A stretch of 33,578 nucleotides of DNA. It comes from Methylococcus sp. Lineage in GTDB: Bacteria > Pseudomonadota > Gammaproteobacteria > Methylococcales > Methylococcaceae. The translations under genes were made by a program, and so were the position numbers. Below the pieces are notes generated by a model, which had not been told where the DNA came from, ran no database searches, and saw only the letters and a program-made list of their open reading frames with translations. The stretch is taken from positions 1-33,578 of the forward strand of contig QYQA01000066.1 in assembly GCA_007280285.1 (NCBI GenBank), read 5' to 3'. This document shows positions 8,491 through 21,711 of this stretch, piece after piece; the first letter of the stretch is position 1, and each line of letters opens with the position of its first letter.

Positions 8491-9155
8491 GGGTTTTTGA
8501 GTCCTTCTAGGCGATATTTGAGGATATGGCCCCCCTCAAGTCGAGAATCAAGGGCGATCCAATCGCCGTTGTCGGCGTACCAGAGTTCCATATCGAATTG
8601 ACGGGTCTTTAGATGGTATCGATTGGCCGTCGTTTTATTTCCCTTCACTTCAACACGATCGCGTCCTTTTGGCGTGATTTCCACATCCACATACTCGCCA
8701 GTCTGCGGATTCAAAAGACGAGACTGCTTCAGCATGTCAGGGTTCCAGTAGGCAAAGGTCATGATGCACGAGGGCAGCATTTCTTGGACAAGTTCTCGTT
8801 TAAGAAGGAATCCAGTGCCGTTGGTTTTTCCTTCAACCACGGAGTCTGTCCCATTATCCTGAGTGGATGCCTTTAACGAGGTCAGGCAGTTGTCTTCCCA
8901 GGTCTCATTCGCTTGATGTTGATAGCGATAGGCATTGATCATCAGAAATTTGACACTAAAGGCAGCCTCACTATGGACACTCTTTTCCGCCTTTGAGCTC
9001 TCGACCCGAAAGACGTGCTGTCCAACAGGGTCTCCATCCAGAAAGACCGTAAAATCAAAGATCTGTTGCTGAGACGTTGAGGATGCTATCGCCGCGACCG
9101 ACCCTAAAAAGCAAAGACCCAGGGCTGCGATCAGCCGTGCCATGTTTTTTTTCAT
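8487..9155 (-). CDS. Periplasmic DUF6134-like (DUF3108-related) protein
   Basis: A 222-residue exported protein. The N-terminus (MKKNMARLIAALGLCFLGSVAAIASS) is a clear signal peptide cleaved near AIA. The mature part has the beta-rich pattern of the DUF6134/DUF3108 group: FTVFLDGDPVGQHVF at the start, YRYQHQANETW in the middle and YHLKTRQFDMELWYADNGDWIALDSRL near the end. The last segment resembles the DUF3108 motif in which a strand pair ends with a W-Y/D-G turn. No activity is established. Position between a membrane DUF1295 protein and the lipocalin suggests a role in periplasmic lipid handling. Confidence 0.8.
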   Translation of the reverse strand: MKKNMARLIAALGLCFLGSVAAIASSTSQQQIFDFTVFLDGDPVGQHVFRVESSKAEKSVHSEAAFSVKFLMINAYRYQHQANETWEDNCLTSLKASTQDNGTDSVVEGKTNGTGFLLKRELVQEMLPSCIMTFAYWNPDMLKQSRLLNPQTGEYVDVEITPKGRDRVEVKGNKTTANRYHLKTRQFDMELWYADNGDWIALDSRLEGGHILKYRLEGLKNP

Positions 9156-11783: not shown

Positions 11784-13208
11784 ATGATGAAAAATACGAC
11801 GCCTTTCTATAATGAAATGACGGATCTCTCGGGTGATATCCGCCCCATTTATCAGCGCTATGCGGACTGGCTGAGAGTCAATGATTCAGCAACCCTCGAG
11901 CGGAAGGGCCGCGAGGCTGAACTGTTGTTTCGGCGTCTGGGTATTACCTTTGCTGTCTATGGGGAGGCGGATGGCACTGAACGGCTCATCCCCTTTGATG
12001 TGGTGCCAAGAATTTTCGGTGGCACTGAATGGCGGCGTTTGGAAACCGGAATCAAACAGCGCGTTAAAGCATTGAATGCATTCCTTCATGACATCTATCA
12101 CGATCAGGAGATATTGAAGGCCGGTGTGATCGAACGGGAACAGGTTCTCGGTAATGCTATGTATTGCAAAGAGATGCAAGGTGTCGATCTCCCGAACCAT
12201 GTCTATGCCCACATCGCAGGGATCGATATCGTCCGCGTGGCTGAAAATGACTTTTACGTCCTAGAAGATAACCTCAGGACGCCTTCTGGGGTGTCCTATA
12301 TGCTCGAAAATCGCAGAACGATGATGCGGTTGTTTCCAGAGCTTTTCGCCCAGCATCAGGTCGAGCCGGTGGAGCATTACCCCCTCATGCTGTTGGATAC
12401 TTTGAGGGAATCGGCGCCACTGGGGATTGATGATCCTGTGATTGTCGTATTAACGCCTGGGGCTTACAACAGCGCCTATTTTGAACATGCCTTCATCGCG
12501 AGTCAGATGGGGGTTGAATTGGTGGAGGGACAAGATCTTTTTGTCCAAGACCAGCGGGTGTATATGCATACCACCGAGGGTCCACAGCAGGTCCATGTCA
12601 TCTATCGGCGTGTCGATGATGATTTTATTGACCCTCGCGCCTTCCGCTCTGATTCCATGCTCGGCGTTCCTGGTCTGATCGGGGCTTACAGGGCAGGTCA
12701 TGTCAGCCTAGCCAATGGCATCGGTGCTGGCGTTGCCGACGATAAATCAACGTATCTTTTTGTTCCGGACATGATTCGGTTTTATCTGGGTGAAACACCC
12801 ATTCTTCAAAATGTGCCTACCTATCGTCTGGGGCTTAAGGATGACTTAGCTTATGTCCTTGAACATCTTGATGAGTTGGTTGTTAAGGAAGTGCAGGGTT
12901 CTGGGGGATACGGTATGTTAGTGGGCCCAACAAGTACCCAGACTGAGATTGCTCATTATCGCGAGCGGATCCTTCTCGACCCCCATAATTTCATTGCCCA
13001 GCCGACCCTGGCCCTGTCAGCGTGTCCCACCCTCGTTGATCAAGGCGTAGCGCCTCGACACGTTGATTTAAGGCCCTTTGTCCTTTCCGGCAAAGAAATC
13101 CGTATGGTTGCTGGGGGGTTGACCCGGGTGGCCCTCAAAGAGTCTTCCCTGATCGTCAATTCTTCGCAGGGTGGTGGAACGAAAGATACCTGGGTATTGG
13201 AGGATTAG
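11784..13208 (+). CDS. Circularly permuted ATP-grasp protein (COG2308)
   Basis: A 474-residue protein of the circularly permuted ATP-grasp type 2 family, predicted to join a carboxylate to an amine using ATP. The recognisable N-terminal block is VNDSATLERKGREAELLFRRLGITFAVYGE, then TERLIPFDVVPRI, EWRRLETGIKQRVKALNAFLHDIYHD, and EDNLRTPSGVSYMLENR. The C-terminal part has VKEVQGSGGYGMLVGP and the RHVDLRPFVL/GGLTRVAL segments that make up the permuted nucleotide and metal site. In many proteobacteria this gene heads the operon with alpha-E, Anbu and transglutaminase, as here, 3 bases before the next gene. ATG 11784 and 11787 are adjacent options, neither with a clear ribosome site. Confidence 0.93.
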   Translation: MMKNTTPFYNEMTDLSGDIRPIYQRYADWLRVNDSATLERKGREAELLFRRLGITFAVYGEADGTERLIPFDVVPRIFGGTEWRRLETGIKQRVKALNAFLHDIYHDQEILKAGVIEREQVLGNAMYCKEMQGVDLPNHVYAHIAGIDIVRVAENDFYVLEDNLRTPSGVSYMLENRRTMMRLFPELFAQHQVEPVEHYPLMLLDTLRESAPLGIDDPVIVVLTPGAYNSAYFEHAFIASQMGVELVEGQDLFVQDQRVYMHTTEGPQQVHVIYRRVDDDFIDPRAFRSDSMLGVPGLIGAYRAGHVSLANGIGAGVADDKSTYLFVPDMIRFYLGETPILQNVPTYRLGLKDDLAYVLEHLDELVVKEVQGSGGYGMLVGPTSTQTEIAHYRERILLDPHNFIAQPTLALSACPTLVDQGVAPRHVDLRPFVLSGKEIRMVAGGLTRVALKESSLIVNSSQGGGTKDTWVLED

Positions 13209-13211
13209 GTC

Positions 13212-14189
13212 ATGCTCTCAAGAACGGCAGAAAATCTCTATTGGATGGCTCGGCATATTGAACGGGCTGAAAATACGGCACGTATTTTAGATGTGGCGCA
13301 TCGATCGGCATTGTTGCCCCTTGATATCGAAGCCACTGAGGCGTACCTCTGGTATGCCCCACTGAATATCACAGGCTGTGCGGAAGCCTATGAATCACGT
13401 TACGGACTTGCAAGGAACGATGCGGTCACCCACTTCATGACGTTCGACGCTGAAAATCCATGCAGCATTTACTGCTGTTTGAAGGCAGCTCGTGAGAATG
13501 CACGGGCGGTTCGCGGTGCCATCACCCAGGAGATGTGGGAAGTGATCAATGCGACATGGCTTGAGGTGACCCGTCGCTCACAAGATACCACCGGAGACGG
13601 CAATGCAGATTTCTTTGATTGGGTGAAGGACCGCTCACATCTTTTTAGAGGCGTGACCCTCGGCACCATTCTCAAGGACATTACTTTGAGCTTCATTCGC
13701 CTAGGTACTTTTCTCGAGCGCGCAGACAATACGGCGCGAATTCTTGACGTGAAATACCATATCTTGTTGCCCTCTGTGACTGATATCGGCGGTGCGGCTG
13801 ATTACTATCAATGGGGTTCTTTACTGAAGTCGGTGAGCGCCTTTGAGGCCTACCGAAAAATTTACCGCGATGTGATTACACCTTCAAAGGTAGCCGAGTT
13901 GCTCATCCTCAGGGATGATATGCCTCGATCCCTTCATGCCTGTCTCAACGAAGTTGAGGCGGCATTGAGTCAGATCAATGGCGGCTCTGGCCATGAGGCC
14001 CGGCGATTAGCCGGGGAATCACATGCAACCCTTCATTTTGGGCGTATCGACGATGTGCTGCTGCAAGGTCTCCATCAGTACCTGACCTGCTTCCTCGATA
14101 CCACGGCTCAACTAGGGCGTGAAATTGGCCAGGCTTATCTTTCCCGCAACCATCTTGGGAGGTTTTCTTCCATGTCCAAGGTGGCCTGA
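13212..14189 (+). CDS. Alpha-E domain-containing protein (COG2307)
   Basis: A 325-residue, almost entirely helical protein of the DUF403/alpha-E family. It opens with the family signature MLSRTAENLYWMARHIERAENTARILDV. A second, similar segment, FIRLGTFLERADNTARILDVKY (~160-180), makes the protein look internally duplicated. The ENARAVRGAITQEMWEVIN stretch is also typical. The biochemical role is not established. The constant pairing with the permuted ATP-grasp suggests it is a subunit of, or carrier for, that ligase. The E-R-A-[ED]-N-T-A repeats are candidate functional helices. Confidence 0.93.
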   Translation: MLSRTAENLYWMARHIERAENTARILDVAHRSALLPLDIEATEAYLWYAPLNITGCAEAYESRYGLARNDAVTHFMTFDAENPCSIYCCLKAARENARAVRGAITQEMWEVINATWLEVTRRSQDTTGDGNADFFDWVKDRSHLFRGVTLGTILKDITLSFIRLGTFLERADNTARILDVKYHILLPSVTDIGGAADYYQWGSLLKSVSAFEAYRKIYRDVITPSKVAELLILRDDMPRSLHACLNEVEAALSQINGGSGHEARRLAGESHATLHFGRIDDVLLQGLHQYLTCFLDTTAQLGREIGQAYLSRNHLGRFSSMSKVA

Positions 14190-14209: not shown

Positions 14210-14965
14210 ATGACCTATTGTGTTGCTATCAAGCTCAAATCAGGGCTTGTTTTTGCCTCCGACTCCAGAACCAATGCAGGCGTTGATCAGGTTTCATGTT
14301 TTCGCAAAATGCGTTCGTTTATCGACCCTGGGAACAGAGTCATTGTGACCTTATGTTCTGGCAATCTGTCGATCACGCAGAACGCCTTGAATCTCATGGA
14401 GCTTCAAGGGCGGCATAGCGATCGCCGCAACATTTGGAATGTTGAATCAATGTTCGATGTGGCTCAGTTGCTGGGTGAATCTTTAAGGCAAGTACGTGAG
14501 ACCGATGGGGCCTTTTTGGCCCAGAGCAATGTCGATTCAGGGGCTAACTTTCTCGTGGGTGGACAGGTGGGTAATGAACGAATACGCCTCTTTTTGGTTT
14601 ATGCCGAGGGTAATTTCATCGAAGCAGGTGAAGAGACGCCTTTTTTTCAAATTGGCGAAACAAAATACGGCAAACCGATTCTCGATCGGGTCATTACTCC
14701 CACCACGCCCATCGCTGAAGCCATCAAATGCGTGATGGTTTCTTTTGATTCCACCATGCGCAGCAATCTTTCAGTGGGATTGCCGATAGACCTTGCCTGT
14801 TACGAATCGGGAAGTCTCAAATTGGGATTTGAGCACCATATCACGGCGCAAGATCCTTATTTTTCTCAAATTAGTCGCCATTGGGGAGAAGGCCTTAGAG
14901 GCTTGTTTGCCTCCCTGCCAGCCCCTGATTGGCTTAATCCATCGACCAGCCAACCAGGATCCTAG
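14210..14965 (+). CDS. Anbu, proteasome-like Ntn-hydrolase peptidase (COG3484)
   Basis: A 251-residue ancestral-beta-subunit-like peptidase. The track begins at a TTG (14192), but ATG 14210, behind AGGA, gives MTYCVAIKLKSG. Removal of Met exposes Thr1, and counting from it Asp17 (FASDSRTNAG) and Lys32 (CFRKM) fall where proteasome-type catalysis needs Asp17 and Lys33. This strongly supports the start. Later family segments are VIVTLCSGNLSITQ and TNVDSGAN-like SNVDSGANFLVGGQ. Characterised Anbu proteins assemble into large open rings or spirals in the cytoplasm; the natural substrate is unsettled. It sits 20 bases after alpha-E and 6 bases before the transglutaminase-amidoligase gene, the standard Anbu operon order. 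Confidence 0.93.
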   Translation: MTYCVAIKLKSGLVFASDSRTNAGVDQVSCFRKMRSFIDPGNRVIVTLCSGNLSITQNALNLMELQGRHSDRRNIWNVESMFDVAQLLGESLRQVRETDGAFLAQSNVDSGANFLVGGQVGNERIRLFLVYAEGNFIEAGEETPFFQIGETKYGKPILDRVITPTTPIAEAIKCVMVSFDSTMRSNLSVGLPIDLACYESGSLKLGFEHHITAQDPYFSQISRHWGEGLRGLFASLPAPDWLNPSTSQPGS

Positions 14966-14971
14966 CGGCCC

Positions 14972-17900
14972 ATGACCATTCGGGTAGCCCTTCATCACCA
15001 GTCACGCTATCGTTTTGATCGGCTCGTTAAGGCATCTCCCCATGAGATTCGCCTCCGGCCTGCCGTCCATTCAAGGACCCCGGTCCATGGATACTCTCTG
15101 AAGGTTTTTCCAGAGCAGCATTTCATCCATTGGCAACAGGATGCTTATGGCAATTTCGTGGCGCGCATCACTTTTCCAGAGCCTACCCGAGAGATCGAAA
15201 TTACGGTCGATCTGATCGCTGACATGACCGTCATCAATCCCTTCGATTATTTTATTGAGGATTGGGCGACTCATTACCCGTTTCAGTATCAAGACCAGCA
15301 GATACGTGATCTCACCCCTTTTCTCGAAAAAGGCCCGGCGACGCCTTTATTTGAAGCCTATCTCAACGCCTTTCTTGAAGCACTCCCCAAGGACCTCACG
15401 ACAACGGATCTATTGGTTTTTCTAAGTCAACGCTTTCATCAGGATATTGGCTATCAGATCCGACTTGAATCGGGTGTCCAGACACCCGAAGAAACGCTCA
15501 CCCTCCAAAGTGGTTCCTGTCGGGACAGTGCTTGGCTGATGGTCCAGGTCTTGCGCCATCTTGGCATCGCGGCCCGCTTTGTTTCAGGTTATCTCATTCA
15601 ACTGGTGCCTGATATTCAATCGACGCCTGAGGCGTTTGATGCGGACTTCACCGATCTTCATGCATGGTGTGAAGCCTATATTCCAGGGGCTGGCTGGGTC
15701 GGTATGGATGCGACCTCAGGACTTTTTGCTGGTGAAGGCCATATTCCTCTTGCAGTGTCTGCCCAGCCGACAGCTGCAGCGCCAGTGATGGGCATGACCA
15801 CGCCCTGTGAGGCGTTGCTTGACGTCGTCATGACCGTCAGTCGGATCCATGAAGACCCAAGAGTCACCAAACCTTACAAGTCTGAAGAATGGGCGTCCAT
15901 TATGGCCTTGGGCGCCACGGTTGATGAGGTTTTGAAGGCAGCAGATGTTCGCTTAACCCAAGGCGGTGAGCCGACCTTCATTGCCCGCGACCCCGGCGAT
16001 AAGGCCGAGTGGCATACCGGTGCCTTGGGGGAAGAAAAGTGGGATCTCGCCCTTCGTTTGTTTCGCCGATTAAAGGATCAATTCGGTCAGGGGGGGGTGA
16101 TACAGTTTGGTCAGGGAAAATGGTATCCAGGAGAACCCTTACCCCGTTGGGCGATGAACCTCTTCTGGCGGACCGATGGCCTCCCCCTGTGGCGTCATCC
16201 TTCTTTACTGGATCCAGCGCCTCATGAAACCCTCGATCTTGGGGTGATTGAAGAATTTGGTCAGAGACTCTGTGAGAGGCTCGGACTCTCTAAAGGTTAT
16301 CTCATACCGGCTTATGAAGATCCTTGGATGGCGCTTGATCATGAAAGTAAGCTCCCCGTCAATGTGGAGGCTGACACCACGGATCTTAAGGATTCGGCCC
16401 ACCGGCAGACGCTTGCTAAGCAATTGCGTCAAGGAGTTTGGAGTCTCGTTGGATATGTTTTACCCCTTAAATCAGAGCAGAAGGAGGGTCATCCTTGCTT
16501 TTGGCGTTCAAGTCGGTGGCCACTTCGCCATGAACAGCTCTTTCTCTTAGGCGGCGATTCCCCCATGGGTCTTCGTCTGCCGCTGGATCGGCTTCCCTGG
16601 GTTGCTCCCGAAGATTTTGAGCCCCACATCTTAGTGGATCCCTTCATGCCGCGTGGGCCCTTGGCGCCGCACTTAAAGTCGACAGCGGACATCGCCGTGC
16701 CGCGGTCTGATGAGCGCCCTAAAGATATTATCCATACAGCACTCACCTTAGAAATTCGCAAAGGACGTGTCCATCTCTTCCTGCCGCCCCTCGAGCGTCT
16801 TGAGGACTTCGTTGACTTGATGGGGCACATTGAGGCGATTGCCGTCACCATGGATCTAGGATTACGTCTTGAGGGCTATGCGCCCCCGAGAGATCCAAGG
16901 TTGACCTCACTCTCGGTCACGCCAGATCCTGGGGTGATCGAGGTTAATGTTCATCCTTCCTCTGATTGGGGTCAGCTTGTAGCCCTCACGCAAACACTCG
17001 ATGAAGAGGCCCGCGCGGTGGGCCTTGCTACAGAAAAATTCAATCTTGATGGCCGCCACACCGGAACCGGCGGAGGCAATCACATCACCCTTGGAGCGCA
17101 TGAAGCGATTGACAGTCCGTTTCTCAGGCGCCCTGATGTGCTGGTCAGCCTTCTCACCTATTGGCAGCAGCATCCCGCACTGTCCTACCTATTTTCAGGG
17201 GCCTTTATTGGCCCCTCGAGTCAGGCCCCTCGAGTTGATGAAGCTCGAAATGATCACCTCTATGAACTAGACATTGCTTTTAGCGAAATCGCACGATCGA
17301 TAAAGCCGGGTGAAGAATCATCTCAGCCTTGGCTGGTGGATCGGCTGCTCCGTCATCTCCTGACCGATATGACAGGTAACACGCACCGCTCAGAATTTTG
17401 TATTGATAAACTCTATTCTCCTGATTCTCCTACCGGCCGCTTAGGTATTCTTGAACTTCGAGCCTTTGAGATGGCCCCCCATTATCAAATGAACCTCCTT
17501 CAGGCGCTGCTTCTCCGCGCTCTGGTGGCTAGATTCTGGACCATGCCATATCGAGGGCCCTTGGTGGCCTGGGGAACACAGCTCCATGACAAATTTATGT
17601 TGCCCTCCTTCATCGAGAGGGATATCGCTGAAGTGGTTCGCGATCTAGGCCAAGGGGGATTCCCTTTCGAGATGGAGTGGTTTCAGCCATTTCTGGCTTT
17701 TCGATGTCCCAGTTATGGCGAAGTGGTCCACGATGGAATTTCACTCTCTCTGCGGCAGGCCATCGAACCTTGGCATGTGCTCGGCGAGGAGGTCGCGGCA
17801 GGTGCCACAGCGCGCTATGTCGATTCCTCCGTGGAACGCATTGAAGTCAGGGTTCGCGGCTTAACAGAAACGCGCCATCAAGTGATCTGTAATGGCAGAG

Positions 17901-18250
17901 TGCTCCCGCTTCATCCCACAGGTGTCCCAGGCGAATTTATAGCAGGCATTCGTTTTAAGGCGTGGGCTCCCCCTTCCGGACTCCATCCAACCATGGGCGT
18001 TCAATCGCCGCTCATATTTGATCTCTACGATCGCTGGAATCAGCGCTCCTTAGGGGGCTGCACCTACCATGTCAGTCATCCAGGCGGGCGTAATTTCAAA
18101 GCGTACCCAGTCAATGCCCAGGAGGCTGAATCCAGACGGCGCGCGAGATTTTGGGGGCATGGTCACACGCCCGGTCCTATGACGATTAGCCAGGAACCTT
18201 TAAATCCTCATTTTCCAATGACGTTGGACCTTCGTTGGACCCCCTATTAG
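14972..18250 (+). CDS. Transglutaminase-like / DUF2126 putative amidoligase fusion
   Basis: A 1092-residue two-part enzyme. Residues 1-~85 are the beta-rich bacterial transglutaminase N-domain (IRVALHHQSRYRFDRLV). The papain-like transglutaminase core follows with Cys183 (QSGSCRDSAW), His230 (LHAWCEAYI) and Asp245 (GMDATSG). From about residue 315 the DUF2126 part begins (LTQGGEPTFIARD) and runs to the C-terminus; it includes NLDGRHTGTGGGNHITLG (~690-706), SEFCIDKLYSP and LELRAFEMAPHYQMN. DUF2126 is described as a putative amidoligase with glutamine-synthetase-like fold. The pair can therefore be read as isopeptide hydrolysis or transfer plus ATP-driven amide formation on one chain. No signal peptide is present, so it acts in the cytoplasm. 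It is part of the Anbu operon. Confidence 0.92.
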   Translation: MTIRVALHHQSRYRFDRLVKASPHEIRLRPAVHSRTPVHGYSLKVFPEQHFIHWQQDAYGNFVARITFPEPTREIEITVDLIADMTVINPFDYFIEDWATHYPFQYQDQQIRDLTPFLEKGPATPLFEAYLNAFLEALPKDLTTTDLLVFLSQRFHQDIGYQIRLESGVQTPEETLTLQSGSCRDSAWLMVQVLRHLGIAARFVSGYLIQLVPDIQSTPEAFDADFTDLHAWCEAYIPGAGWVGMDATSGLFAGEGHIPLAVSAQPTAAAPVMGMTTPCEALLDVVMTVSRIHEDPRVTKPYKSEEWASIMALGATVDEVLKAADVRLTQGGEPTFIARDPGDKAEWHTGALGEEKWDLALRLFRRLKDQFGQGGVIQFGQGKWYPGEPLPRWAMNLFWRTDGLPLWRHPSLLDPAPHETLDLGVIEEFGQRLCERLGLSKGYLIPAYEDPWMALDHESKLPVNVEADTTDLKDSAHRQTLAKQLRQGVWSLVGYVLPLKSEQKEGHPCFWRSSRWPLRHEQLFLLGGDSPMGLRLPLDRLPWVAPEDFEPHILVDPFMPRGPLAPHLKSTADIAVPRSDERPKDIIHTALTLEIRKGRVHLFLPPLERLEDFVDLMGHIEAIAVTMDLGLRLEGYAPPRDPRLTSLSVTPDPGVIEVNVHPSSDWGQLVALTQTLDEEARAVGLATEKFNLDGRHTGTGGGNHITLGAHEAIDSPFLRRPDVLVSLLTYWQQHPALSYLFSGAFIGPSSQAPRVDEARNDHLYELDIAFSEIARSIKPGEESSQPWLVDRLLRHLLTDMTGNTHRSEFCIDKLYSPDSPTGRLGILELRAFEMAPHYQMNLLQALLLRALVARFWTMPYRGPLVAWGTQLHDKFMLPSFIERDIAEVVRDLGQGGFPFEMEWFQPFLAFRCPSYGEVVHDGISLSLRQAIEPWHVLGEEVAAGATARYVDSSVERIEVRVRGLTETRHQVICNGRVLPLHPTGVPGEFIAGIRFKAWAPPSGLHPTMGVQSPLIFDLYDRWNQRSLGGCTYHVSHPGGRNFKAYPVNAQEAESRRRARFWGHGHTPGPMTISQEPLNPHFPMTLDLRWTPY

Positions 18251-18263
18251 GAGTGATAAAGAC

Positions 18264-19502
18264 ATGCTTGAGTCCAATTCAATGCCTCGTTTTGGCGATA
18301 AAAAAAACTCAGAGTTCTTTGAAGAATACCTCTCCCGTCTTCTAGACGAGCGTGATCGAACGGGATTAACGGATATGCTGGGTGAAATTGAAGCCTTGCT
18401 GATCGGTGTTGAGCCAGGAAATGCCGTTGAATATATCGCCGAGCTTGCGCTGATGACGCCTTATCATTATCTGGTCACTCTGGAAAGTGAAAAACATCAG
18501 ACGCACGTCTTAAGAATTGATATGGCATCGCCGGATATCCTCCTTCGAGAACCCCGCCAGATGGCCTATAGCGATATCTTCACCAGCCTCAATGATCTTT
18601 ATCCGGTTGGTGCAAAACGCCCTCACAGCCGTTATCTCGGTGAAATTCTGCACTGTGATGATCGCCATCAGGTCGTGGCCCTCCAACAACAACGAGAATT
18701 CCGTTTTTTCTCAGTAGGCCAGCTGGCTGATCTTGATTTACCGCTCAATGTCAGCATCTCGAAACCTTCACCGTATACCCAGAATGTCTTGGGCTATATG
18801 GACCGGCCAGAGGATTCGATCAGGGTTTATCACCATGGCCGGTCTGAGATCTTCGCTAAAGCGCAAGCGGCTAATGATCGCGGCAAGGAGATGCAGGAGC
18901 GATTGGGTATTAGTGAACTCATCGGCCCCATCGATCATCTGGCGACTCGTGTCTACAGTCAAAACCGGGAACCGGCCATTCTTGAATACCTGGCTTTATC
19001 GAGCTACTACTACTGGGGTAGCTACGATATTGTGCCTCAAAATTCATCGACGAATGTTACTAAAAATCTCCGCGGTTGGCCTGAATCGAGGAGCCCTGCG
19101 AAGGTTTTCACCGCTAATAACCATCCTTATTGCGTCAATCATCTTGACCGGCTTCCAAGTCCTACGGAAACCTTTGTCAGAAACTACGGGCCACGACTTC
19201 ACCACATGGCCGTCGAAGTGAAAGATGGGCAGCGTGATGGACGCGAGTATATCGATATTGTCGTCGATGCCATCTCAGGTCAAGGCAAAGGCTTTCTCCT
19301 TGAAACCATTGGCTCTAGAAAAGAGGGCCTGAAGCAGATCTTCTCATCAGCTTCTGATTTCTCCTCCCTGATCATCGAATATGTCCAACGATTTGGTGAT
19401 TTTGAAGGCTTCTTTACCCGCGACAACGTCGCCAAGTTGACGTTTGCTGCTGGCCAAGAAGAGGGGGTCAAGGAAGAGTTGGACTTGAATTCAACGTCTT
19501 AG
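18264..19502 (+). CDS. HPPD-like VOC-superfamily protein, probable Fe(II) dioxygenase
   Basis: A 412-residue protein whose C-terminal half (from ~220) resembles 4-hydroxyphenylpyruvate dioxygenase-type VOC domains. It begins GPIDHLATRVYS; LHHMAVEV and VVDAISGQGKGFLLETIG follow; it ends with LIIEYVQRFGDFEGFFTRDNVAKL, much like the HPPD terminal helix region. His225, His313 or 314, and Glu372 could form the two-His/one-Glu iron site. The N-terminal ~200 residues are not recognised; they are partly helical at first, then mixed, and could be a diverged first VOC domain. AGGAG precedes the ATG, 13 bases after the amidoligase stop, so it is probably in the Anbu transcript. A true HPPD role is doubtful because no tyrosine-catabolism gene is nearby. 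Confidence 0.65.
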   Translation: MLESNSMPRFGDKKNSEFFEEYLSRLLDERDRTGLTDMLGEIEALLIGVEPGNAVEYIAELALMTPYHYLVTLESEKHQTHVLRIDMASPDILLREPRQMAYSDIFTSLNDLYPVGAKRPHSRYLGEILHCDDRHQVVALQQQREFRFFSVGQLADLDLPLNVSISKPSPYTQNVLGYMDRPEDSIRVYHHGRSEIFAKAQAANDRGKEMQERLGISELIGPIDHLATRVYSQNREPAILEYLALSSYYYWGSYDIVPQNSSTNVTKNLRGWPESRSPAKVFTANNHPYCVNHLDRLPSPTETFVRNYGPRLHHMAVEVKDGQRDGREYIDIVVDAISGQGKGFLLETIGSRKEGLKQIFSSASDFSSLIIEYVQRFGDFEGFFTRDNVAKLTFAAGQEEGVKEELDLNSTS

Positions 19503-19528: not shown

Positions 19529-20344
19529 ATGGACTGTTCTGATCTCCTCGAACCTGTCATTGCGATTGCCAAGGCGGCTGCTAAGGCTGTTTTGGAGGTG
19601 TATTCAGAAGATTTCGAGGTCACCGAAAAATCGGATCACTCGCCCTTAACGCGGGCAGATCTTCAGTCACATCATTTGATTGTGAAAGGCCTCCAGGGTC
19701 TTTCTCCTCACTACCCCATTCTTTCTGAAGAAGCCGCTGATATTCCCTACGAGGTTCGTTCCACGTGGTCGACTTATTGGCTGGTAGATCCCCTTGATGG
19801 CACCAAAGAATTCATCAAACGCAATGGTGAATTTACCGTCAACATTGCACTCATTCATCACCACCAACCCCTCCTTGGGGTTGTTTTAGCGCCGGTTCCT
19901 GAACGGCTCTATTTTGCAGCGATGGGGCAGGGGGCCTATCGATCGGTGGCTGGTCAGCCGCCCGTTCGACTTCAGGTGGGTGGCACCGAAGAGGGGCCAT
20001 GGCGACTCATCGGCAGTCGTTCCCATGGTTCGAACGAATGGGATCGTTTTCTTGAAACGGTGGGTTCTTATGTGCTCGACACAGTAGGCAGCTCATTAAA
20101 GTTCTGTCGAATTGCCGAGGCGAGTGCCGATCTTTATCCCCGCTTTGGACCCACTTCTGAGTGGGATACCGCCGCCGCGCATGCGATCGTTCTTGAGGCT
20201 GGAGGCACCGTCTGTGATCTTCAAGGTGTTGAGCTCCTTTACAACATGAAACCGTCTCTTTTAAATCCATTCTTCCTCGTCCATGCCAAGGGGGATCAAC
20301 GCTGGCTTCCTCTCGCTCAAAGCATTCTTCCACATCCTTTATGA
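19529..20344 (+). CDS. cysQ: 3'(2'),5'-bisphosphate nucleotidase CysQ
   Basis: A 271-residue member of the inositol-monophosphatase-like, Mg2+-dependent, Li+-sensitive phosphatases. It hydrolyses adenosine 3',5'-bisphosphate (PAP) formed during sulfate assimilation and by phosphopantetheine transfer. Metal-binding motifs are SEEAA (~68), WLVDPLDGTKEFIKRNGEFTVNIAL (~92-115) and the C-terminal SEWDTAAAHAIVLEAGG. The length agrees with the family (~250-270). The nearest purine-rich block (GAGGGGG) is 14 bases before the ATG; a GGGG/CCCC pairing in between could shorten the distance. The stop overlaps the trkA start by 4 bases. Confidence 0.95.
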   Translation: MDCSDLLEPVIAIAKAAAKAVLEVYSEDFEVTEKSDHSPLTRADLQSHHLIVKGLQGLSPHYPILSEEAADIPYEVRSTWSTYWLVDPLDGTKEFIKRNGEFTVNIALIHHHQPLLGVVLAPVPERLYFAAMGQGAYRSVAGQPPVRLQVGGTEEGPWRLIGSRSHGSNEWDRFLETVGSYVLDTVGSSLKFCRIAEASADLYPRFGPTSEWDTAAAHAIVLEAGGTVCDLQGVELLYNMKPSLLNPFFLVHAKGDQRWLPLAQSILPHPL

Positions 20345-21711
20345 AAATTATTATCCTAGGCGCCGGACAGGTTGGTGTGAGCCTCCTTGCAAGTCTATCG
20401 AGTGAAAAAAATGATATCGTCATGGTCGATATGCGAGGTGACCTCTTAGATACCCTCCAGGACCGTTTTGACATTCGGACGGTACAGGGTAATGCGGCCC
20501 ATCCGACCGTGCTGCAGCATGCAGGGGCGCATGAGGCCGATCTTTTGATTGCCGCCACCAGTGATGACGAAACCAACATGCTGGCCTGCCAGATGGCCGA
20601 CCTTCTGTTCAAAGTCCCTAAGAAAATTGCGCGGGTGAGGGCGATTGAGTACTTCATGTTTCCAGGGCTTTTCTCCCCTGAAACGATACCGATTGACTAC
20701 GTCATCAGCCCCGAACAGATCATCACCCAGTTTATTCAGCGCCTCCTTGAGTATCCAGGCGCCAATCAGGTGCATGATTTTGCGGAGGGGAAGGTACGGA
20801 TGGCTTCTGTGAAAGCGCTTCGTGGCGGGCTCATTGTGGGTCGGGAAGTCCGCGAACTGCAGCAACACATTCCAAACTTTCATGTCCGTATCGCCGCTAT
20901 TTTTCGCAATGGTCAACCTATTGTGCCGAATGGAAACACCATCATCAATCATGATGACGAAGTCTTTTTTTTAGCCTCCAGTGAAGAAATTAAAGGCGTT
21001 ATGGCCGAGCTTCGAAAAACTGAACGCCCTTATAAAAAACTCATCTTTGCTGGTGGCGGTCATCTCGGTAAAAGGGTTGCACTCGCGCTTGAACATGACT
21101 ATCAAGTCAAAGTGATTGAGCGAAATCCACTACGTGCTAAAAAAATTGCAGGGCAACTTGATAAGGCCACGGTCCTGGTGGGCGATGCCTCTGATAAAGA
21201 GTTGCTCCTCAGTGAGAACGTTGATTCGGTGGATGTCTTTTGCGCCATCACCAACAATGATGAAGTGAACATCCTTTCTGCGATGCTGGCCAAACGCCTA
21301 GGAGCACGCCGGGCCATCTGTCTGGTGAATAACGACGCTTATTCTGATATTGTCGATACCTCCCATGTCGATCTCGTTATTTCGCCACAACAAGCGACGA
21401 TCAGCGCACTCTTACGCTACATCAGGCGGGGTGATATTGCCCAAGTTCATTCTTTGCGGCATGGATCCTCCGAGGCGATTGAAGTGATCGCGCATGGATC
21501 AGCGGAAGATTCTAAGGTGATTGGCGTCCCCTTAAAAGAGATCGAAATGCCTGAAGGCGTGGTCATGGGCGCTTTGGTTCGTGATGATGAGGTTCTTCAT
21601 ATCCACCATGACACCGTCATTGAAGATGGCGATCATGTCATCATGTTTGTTTTGGATAAGAAGCTCATTCCCGCGGTTGAACGTTTGTTCCAATCGGGCT
21701 TTAGCAACTAA
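20341..21711 (+). CDS. trkA: Trk potassium uptake system NAD(H)-binding regulatory subunit TrkA
   Basis: A 456-residue peripheral inner-membrane protein that binds NAD(H) and gates K+ uptake through TrkH/TrkG. It consists of two tandem RCK units: the first Rossmann loop is IIILGAGQVGVSL (residues 2-14) and the second is IFAGGGHLGKRVAL (~238). Each is followed by an acidic strand end (VDMRGD, IERNP) and a TrkA-C domain, the latter visible as IGVPLKEIEMPEGVVMGALVR and EDGDHVIMFV. Length matches E. coli TrkA (458). No trkH lies in the window, so the channel is encoded elsewhere. It is translationally coupled to cysQ. Confidence 0.96.
   Translation: MKIIILGAGQVGVSLLASLSSEKNDIVMVDMRGDLLDTLQDRFDIRTVQGNAAHPTVLQHAGAHEADLLIAATSDDETNMLACQMADLLFKVPKKIARVRAIEYFMFPGLFSPETIPIDYVISPEQIITQFIQRLLEYPGANQVHDFAEGKVRMASVKALRGGLIVGREVRELQQHIPNFHVRIAAIFRNGQPIVPNGNTIINHDDEVFFLASSEEIKGVMAELRKTERPYKKLIFAGGGHLGKRVALALEHDYQVKVIERNPLRAKKIAGQLDKATVLVGDASDKELLLSENVDSVDVFCAITNNDEVNILSAMLAKRLGARRAICLVNNDAYSDIVDTSHVDLVISPQQATISALLRYIRRGDIAQVHSLRHGSSEAIEVIAHGSAEDSKVIGVPLKEIEMPEGVVMGALVRDDEVLHIHHDTVIEDGDHVIMFVLDKKLIPAVERLFQSGFSN

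Follow-up and report, generated by a model that had tools for sequence, protein, structure and literature searches.

A divergent HPPD-fold, dioxygenase-like protein encoded beside the ATP-grasp/Alpha-E/amidoligase module of an Anbu-type operon in Methylococcus

What Anbu does, and what the ATP-grasp/Alpha-E/amidoligase module encoded with it does, has been unsettled since 2008–2009, and a locus in which a further enzyme gene follows this module raises the question of whether that enzyme belongs to the system and which reaction it would contribute. Such a locus was analysed in a contig of Methylococcus sp. (QYQA01000066.1, assembly GCA_007280285.1; the window is the whole stretch of 33,578 nucleotides), where the four genes described for the Anbu operon, or COG2307-COG2308-transglutaminase system (Iyer 2009; Valas & Bourne 2008), were all found between 11784 and 18250 in the order ATP-grasp, Alpha-E, Anbu, TGase/DUF2126, an order shared by L027 and other loci (L, G and C numbers are our handles). 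The described version comprises four genes, whereas the window adds a fifth, here called the VOC gene, which a sequence-only reading had put forward as a candidate HPPD-like dioxygenase that could act on a peptide product. A term search of PMC5666114 and PMC6376114 showed four operon genes and no dioxygenase, a further paper is likewise silent on one, an earlier mention in Iyer 2009 being possible, and a search of the literature on the system beyond Anbu returned nothing relevant. Assays cited in PMC6376114 detected no peptidase activity.

Feature coordinates are collected in Table 1. The reading frame of the VOC gene is intact, running from the ATG at 18264 to a stop at 19500–19502, and is separated from the end of the TGase/DUF2126 gene by 13 intergenic bases; its AGGAG, 10 bases 5' of the ATG, overlaps the TAG stop of the preceding gene, in agreement with the earlier claim of an own ribosome-binding site and a 13-base spacing. 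No terminator-like or promoter-like site was found on the + strand between the two genes, and, from the sequence, the VOC gene is probably co-transcribed with the amidoligase operon. The identities given earlier to the four preceding genes held up in Pfam, with that of Anbu resting on a weak Proteasome match (PF00227, below cut-off) together with the MTYCV N-terminus and the operon position. The longest Anbu reading frame opens at TTG 14192; the ATG at 14210 was preferred, giving MTYCV with Thr directly after Met and thus leaving Thr1 as the Anbu nucleophile. A second Anbu paralogue, ~40% identical, was seen 5' of the ATP-grasp gene in Methylomonas-like loci (L025, L029, L030, L042). On the other side of the VOC gene, cysQ and trkA (window 19529–21711) follow after a 26-base gap, the order VOC-cysQ-trkA being found only in the closest relatives of the window (L021, L027); these two genes may have a transcript in common with VOC. 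The VOC reading frame is a conserved gene and not a chance one, since it was found in related genomes and at GTDB loci, with its nearest relatives 93% identical and flanked by the same neighbours.

Table 1. Positions of the VOC gene, its predicted iron ligands and the genes that precede it in the window.
Feature	Position	Strand	Evidence
Circularly permuted ATP-grasp (COG2308 type)	11784..13208	+	PF14403, E 1e-162; PF04174
Alpha-E protein (COG2307 type)	13212..14189	+	PF04168, E 7e-102
Anbu	14210..14965	+	PF00227 weak, below cut-off; MTYCV N-terminus; operon place; Anbu-protein search
Transglutaminase-like + DUF2126 putative amidoligase fusion (TGase/DUF2126)	14972..18250	+	PF08379, PF01841, PF09899 (1212 bits)
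AGGAG ribosome-binding site	18249..18253	+	Sequence
VOC gene, HPPD-fold 2-oxo-acid dioxygenase-like protein, 412 aa	18264..19502	+	ORF, AlphaFold2 model, Foldseek, hhalign
His225 codon, predicted first Fe ligand (IDHLATRV)	18936..18938	+	Invariant in 62 rows; on HPPD IDHL
His314 codon, predicted second Fe ligand (RLHHMAVEV)	19203..19205	+	Invariant in 62 rows; on HPPD QHIAL
Glu372 codon, predicted third Fe ligand (LIIEYVQR)	19377..19379	+	Invariant in 62 rows; on HPPD FFEIIQR

Sequence searches with the VOC protein returned no Pfam family match at E 1 and no NCBIfam match at E ≤ 1, TIGR01263 included, and no TIGR01263 match, and so no canonical HPPD, was found in its own genome. Against the PDB, a sequence-profile search with the alignment gave no match, and searching with the sequence by itself yielded just one at chance level, to DnaA. 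An alignment of 62 rows (A1; 61 relatives and the window protein) was used as input for AlphaFold2, producing a model with a pLDDT of 91 and a pTM of 0.90. When this model was compared with the PDB using Foldseek, every one of the 50 best matches listed was an HPPD or a hydroxymandelate synthase (best E 1.5e-15), with 12–15% identity over ~400 alignment columns, both modules covered, TM ~0.5–0.6 by query length, and rmsd 4–9 Å. 4-Hydroxymandelate synthase (2r5v, 3zgj) was among the best structural matches (TM up to 0.61 relative to the query length and 0.72 relative to the target length, for 3zgj_B), although the VOC protein is 13–15% identical to it. The two VOC modules are thus arranged in the model as in HPPD, and the predicted structure has a common architecture with HPPD and hydroxymandelate synthase, at considerable divergence, which bears out the HPPD-like fold of the sequence-only reading. 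Since the matches span both halves of the protein, its N-terminal half, previously described as unrecognised, corresponds to the usual metal-free first half of HPPD; profile alignment to HPPD backs the C-terminal half only, the N-terminal likeness being structural alone. Viral structures gave no match to the model, and plasmid records encoded no relative of the protein. The VOC protein is a member of an HPPD-fold family without a name in Pfam and NCBIfam.

For the metal site, A1 was aligned using hhalign with HPPDs taken from TIGR01263 matches, the local alignment being informative and the global one not. The local alignment covered VOC residues 221–399 (E 7.8e-4, 155 columns) and placed H225, H314 and E372 on the HPPD iron ligands, a triad that is invariant in 76 sequences and likewise in the 62-row A1. 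The predicted site therefore has the 2-His-1-Glu ligands of the HPPD/HMS superfamily, and the C-terminal His/His/Glu site proposed earlier was retained; the metal would be Fe(II). By the same alignment, Q358-x-F360 falls on HPPD LLQIF, N286 matches the PINEP-type loop Asn, and N388 matches the Asn in GNF, so that the protein resembles HPPD in its two-module fold, in the triad, and in having, close to the predicted site, Q-x-F, an Asn and a GNF-type Asn; H225, H314, E372, N286, Q358, F360 and N388 are invariant in both groups of the family (A and B, below). Unlike HPPD, to which it is 12–15% identical, it has no TIGR01263 match, lies in another genomic setting, and is changed in some pocket residues, with P300 in place of the SQI Gln, H313 in place of the Gln that precedes the second iron His, and V389 in place of the GNF Phe (hhalign). 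Of the HPPD pocket residues for the hydroxyphenyl substrate, N286, Q358, F360 and N388 are retained and these three are changed, and given the changes, 4-hydroxyphenylpyruvate is probably not the substrate of the VOC protein.

The VOC gene was found in 19 of 61 near genomes (its own and 18 related), in 7 of 399 genomes spread over the phylum, convincingly in 4 of 199 genomes of Planctomycetota (the phylum of L066), and at 62 loci from GTDB genomes. On the tree, the family forms two groups with full support. Group A, at 58–94% identity to the window protein, comes from Gamma- and Betaproteobacteria (e.g. Methylococcaceae, Methylophilaceae, Gallionellaceae, Thioalkalivibrio), and group B, at ~40% identity, from Alphaproteobacteria (Sneathiella, Roseibium, Ruegeria), Planctomycetes and two Actinobacteria.

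Loci were scored as linked when a gene for ATP-grasp, Alpha-E, DUF2126 or Anbu lay within the retrieved flanks, and as unlinked when none did despite at least 5 kb of flank on both sides, leaving 7 group-A loci unscorable. Linkage was found at 32 of the 41 scorable group-A loci (L086, at 6.7 kb, being a weak case), the other nine being unlinked, and never in group B. The linked loci showed at least seven gene orders: DUF2126 followed by a VOC gene that closes the operon (window clade); ATP-grasp, Alpha-E, VOC, DUF2126 (L088, L047); ATP-grasp, Alpha-E, VOC (L087, L090, L091, L094); ATP-grasp, Alpha-E, TGase, VOC (L043, L122); VOC, DUF2126, ATP-grasp, Alpha-E, Anbu (L050); VOC and a reversed Anbu, followed by DUF2126, ATP-grasp, Alpha-E (L046); and VOC, DUF2126, Anbu with divergent ATP-grasp, Alpha-E, TGase (L123). 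The linkage label was clustered on the tree, with 8 changes; at a chance rate of ~3% per locus, estimated by hand, even seven independent links are unlikely (P 3e-4). Alpha-E was present in 17 of 19 genomes with VOC versus 20 of 42 without (P 0.002, uncorrected for kinship), DUF2126 in 15 of 19 versus 13 of 42 (kinship not considered), and Alpha-E occurred somewhere in 36 of 39 other VOC-bearing genomes. Counted the other way, VOC was found in 17 of 37 relatives with Alpha-E and 15 of 28 with DUF2126; it is not a constant component of the Anbu operon, and is an accessory, lineage-specific gene of the Anbu-type operon. The single decayed copy of the VOC gene, a broken remnant, lies in L092 (G032:C90, ~8606–9000), and its genome gave no match for Alpha-E, DUF2126 or Anbu.

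Anbu itself was absent from the VOC-bearing locus in L043, L047, L087, L088, L094 and L122. A strict dependence of VOC on Anbu was considered and rejected, the VOC locus often lacking Anbu, which then lies on another contig or in another region (e.g. G056, C32 versus C17). Since Anbu is often elsewhere in the genome, VOC is tied to the ATP-grasp/Alpha-E/amidoligase module rather than to Anbu, and since nine group-A copies and all of group B are unlinked, the enzyme can act without the module. The expected co-occurrence with COG2308/Anbu loci thus stood, at 32 of 41 loci, with the module as the partner rather than Anbu. Neither of the two findings named beforehand as refuting the sequence-only reading, a structure without the metal site or an absence of co-occurrence with Anbu genes elsewhere, was obtained. 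The suggestion of an extended Anbu system stood in that VOC recurs at such loci, but fell short in that group B lies outside them and the family is not dedicated to Anbu.

Other neighbouring genes suggest a small acidic 2-oxo acid as the substrate. In group B, Sneathiella, several Planctomycetes and Actinobacteria carry malic enzyme and an FMN glutamate-synthase-like gene next to VOC; in Ruegeria, VOC adjoins genes of the 5-oxoprolinase type (LamB/YcsF and carboxyltransferase). In group A, malic enzyme adjoins VOC in L048, lies two genes away in L035, and is also near in L032/L033, and citrate synthase lies directly downstream of VOC in some methanotroph-like genomes (L034:2718–3992, L040:10250–11521, L054:10248–11522). 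Malic enzyme is an inconstant neighbour, missing beside VOC in three further Planctomycetes, and operon neighbours need not belong to one pathway. The group-B loci with malic enzyme beside VOC were L053, L055, L057, L062, L058, L064, L066, L056 and L061; the malic enzymes near VOC fall into two distantly related subfamilies, seen in groups A and B; the FMN glutamate-synthase-like protein near group-B VOC is membrane-anchored; and lipA/lipB lie just upstream in L054 and L034.

The reading that we favour, with a probability of roughly 0.6, is that the VOC protein uses Fe(II) and O2 for the oxidative decarboxylation of a 2-oxo acid, which is probably one other than 4-hydroxyphenylpyruvate, and that in Proteobacteria it provides or alters a building block for the amidoligases. 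Computation supports the fold, the conserved triad and the linkage to the module. From these we infer a reaction in which the C-terminal barrel would bind Fe(II) via H225, H314 and E372 (by homology), the iron would be chelated by the 2-oxo acid, O2 would attack with loss of CO2, and the resulting Fe(IV)-oxo species would hydroxylate the same substrate. Substrate and role are speculative: the best guess is a small acidic, 2-oxoglutarate-like 2-oxo acid that would be turned into a hydroxy acid such as malate, the expected product of 2-oxoglutarate in a hydroxymandelate-synthase-type reaction. HglS (2-oxoadipate dioxygenase, DUF1338), itself of the VOC fold, removes CO2 from a small acidic 2-oxo acid and hydroxylates it; the enzyme is a mechanistic analogue only, the VOC protein having no DUF1338 match and HglS not being among the 50 structural matches listed. 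In Proteobacteria, the ATP-grasp (COG2308)/Alpha-E (COG2307)/transglutaminase-DUF2126 locus would have acquired the gene, whose product would most likely make or modify a building block joined by the amidoligases, with Anbu as an optional hydrolase of the pathway. A fully specified scheme, in which this new HPPD-fold family converts a central 2-oxo acid (e.g. 2-oxoglutarate) and O2 to a hydroxy acid, which in Proteobacteria is condensed by ATP-grasp/DUF2126 and released by Anbu as a hydroxy-acid-containing peptide or depsipeptide-like product, is improbable in all its detail.

The strongest competitor, though an unlikely one, is a housekeeping 2-oxo-acid dioxygenase (e.g. 2-oxoglutarate to malate, or another C4/C5 side route) that is only co-regulated with the amidoligase locus (under nitrogen limitation, for instance) and is not involved in the peptide chemistry. 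Group B and the nine group-A copies outside any module locus fit it, as do the recurrence of malic enzyme and citrate synthase beside VOC, the clearly unrelated cysQ and trkA that follow in the window clade, and a report, cited in PMC5666114, that Anbu is induced in nitrogen-limited P. putida. However, at least seven gene orders with VOC beside ATP-grasp/Alpha-E/DUF2126 go beyond accidental co-regulation, and the version in which VOC replaces a missing 2-oxoglutarate dehydrogenase was rejected, SucA (TIGR00239) being present in 59 of 61 relatives, all VOC carriers included. Oxidation of an aromatic or keto-acid end of a finished peptide, as originally proposed, would suit a gene that adjoins the amidoligase gene and a protein whose nearest folds, HPPD and hydroxymandelate synthase, use aromatic 2-oxo acids, but it is very doubtful given the changed HPPD pocket residues (P300, H313, V389), the group-B copies that lie among acid-metabolism genes pointing to small acids, with no ligase nearby, and the lack of any known peptide product. 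Among VOC enzymes, some isomerases and lyases have comparable ligand sets, and iron is only predicted here, so an HPPD-fold lyase or isomerase with another divalent metal was also weighed; it has the least credence of all, as the full-length, two-module matches among the 50 listed are to alpha-keto-acid dioxygenases only, and the Q-x-F that lies near the iron in HPPD is retained.

The VOC protein is an undescribed relative of HPPD whose kin in other bacteria recurrently lie beside peptide-bond-making genes, and its linkage gives a first chemical clue to the Anbu-type system. A partner enzyme with a guessable reaction provides a handle on this system: if the 2-oxo acid used by the VOC protein is found, the substrate of the module may follow.
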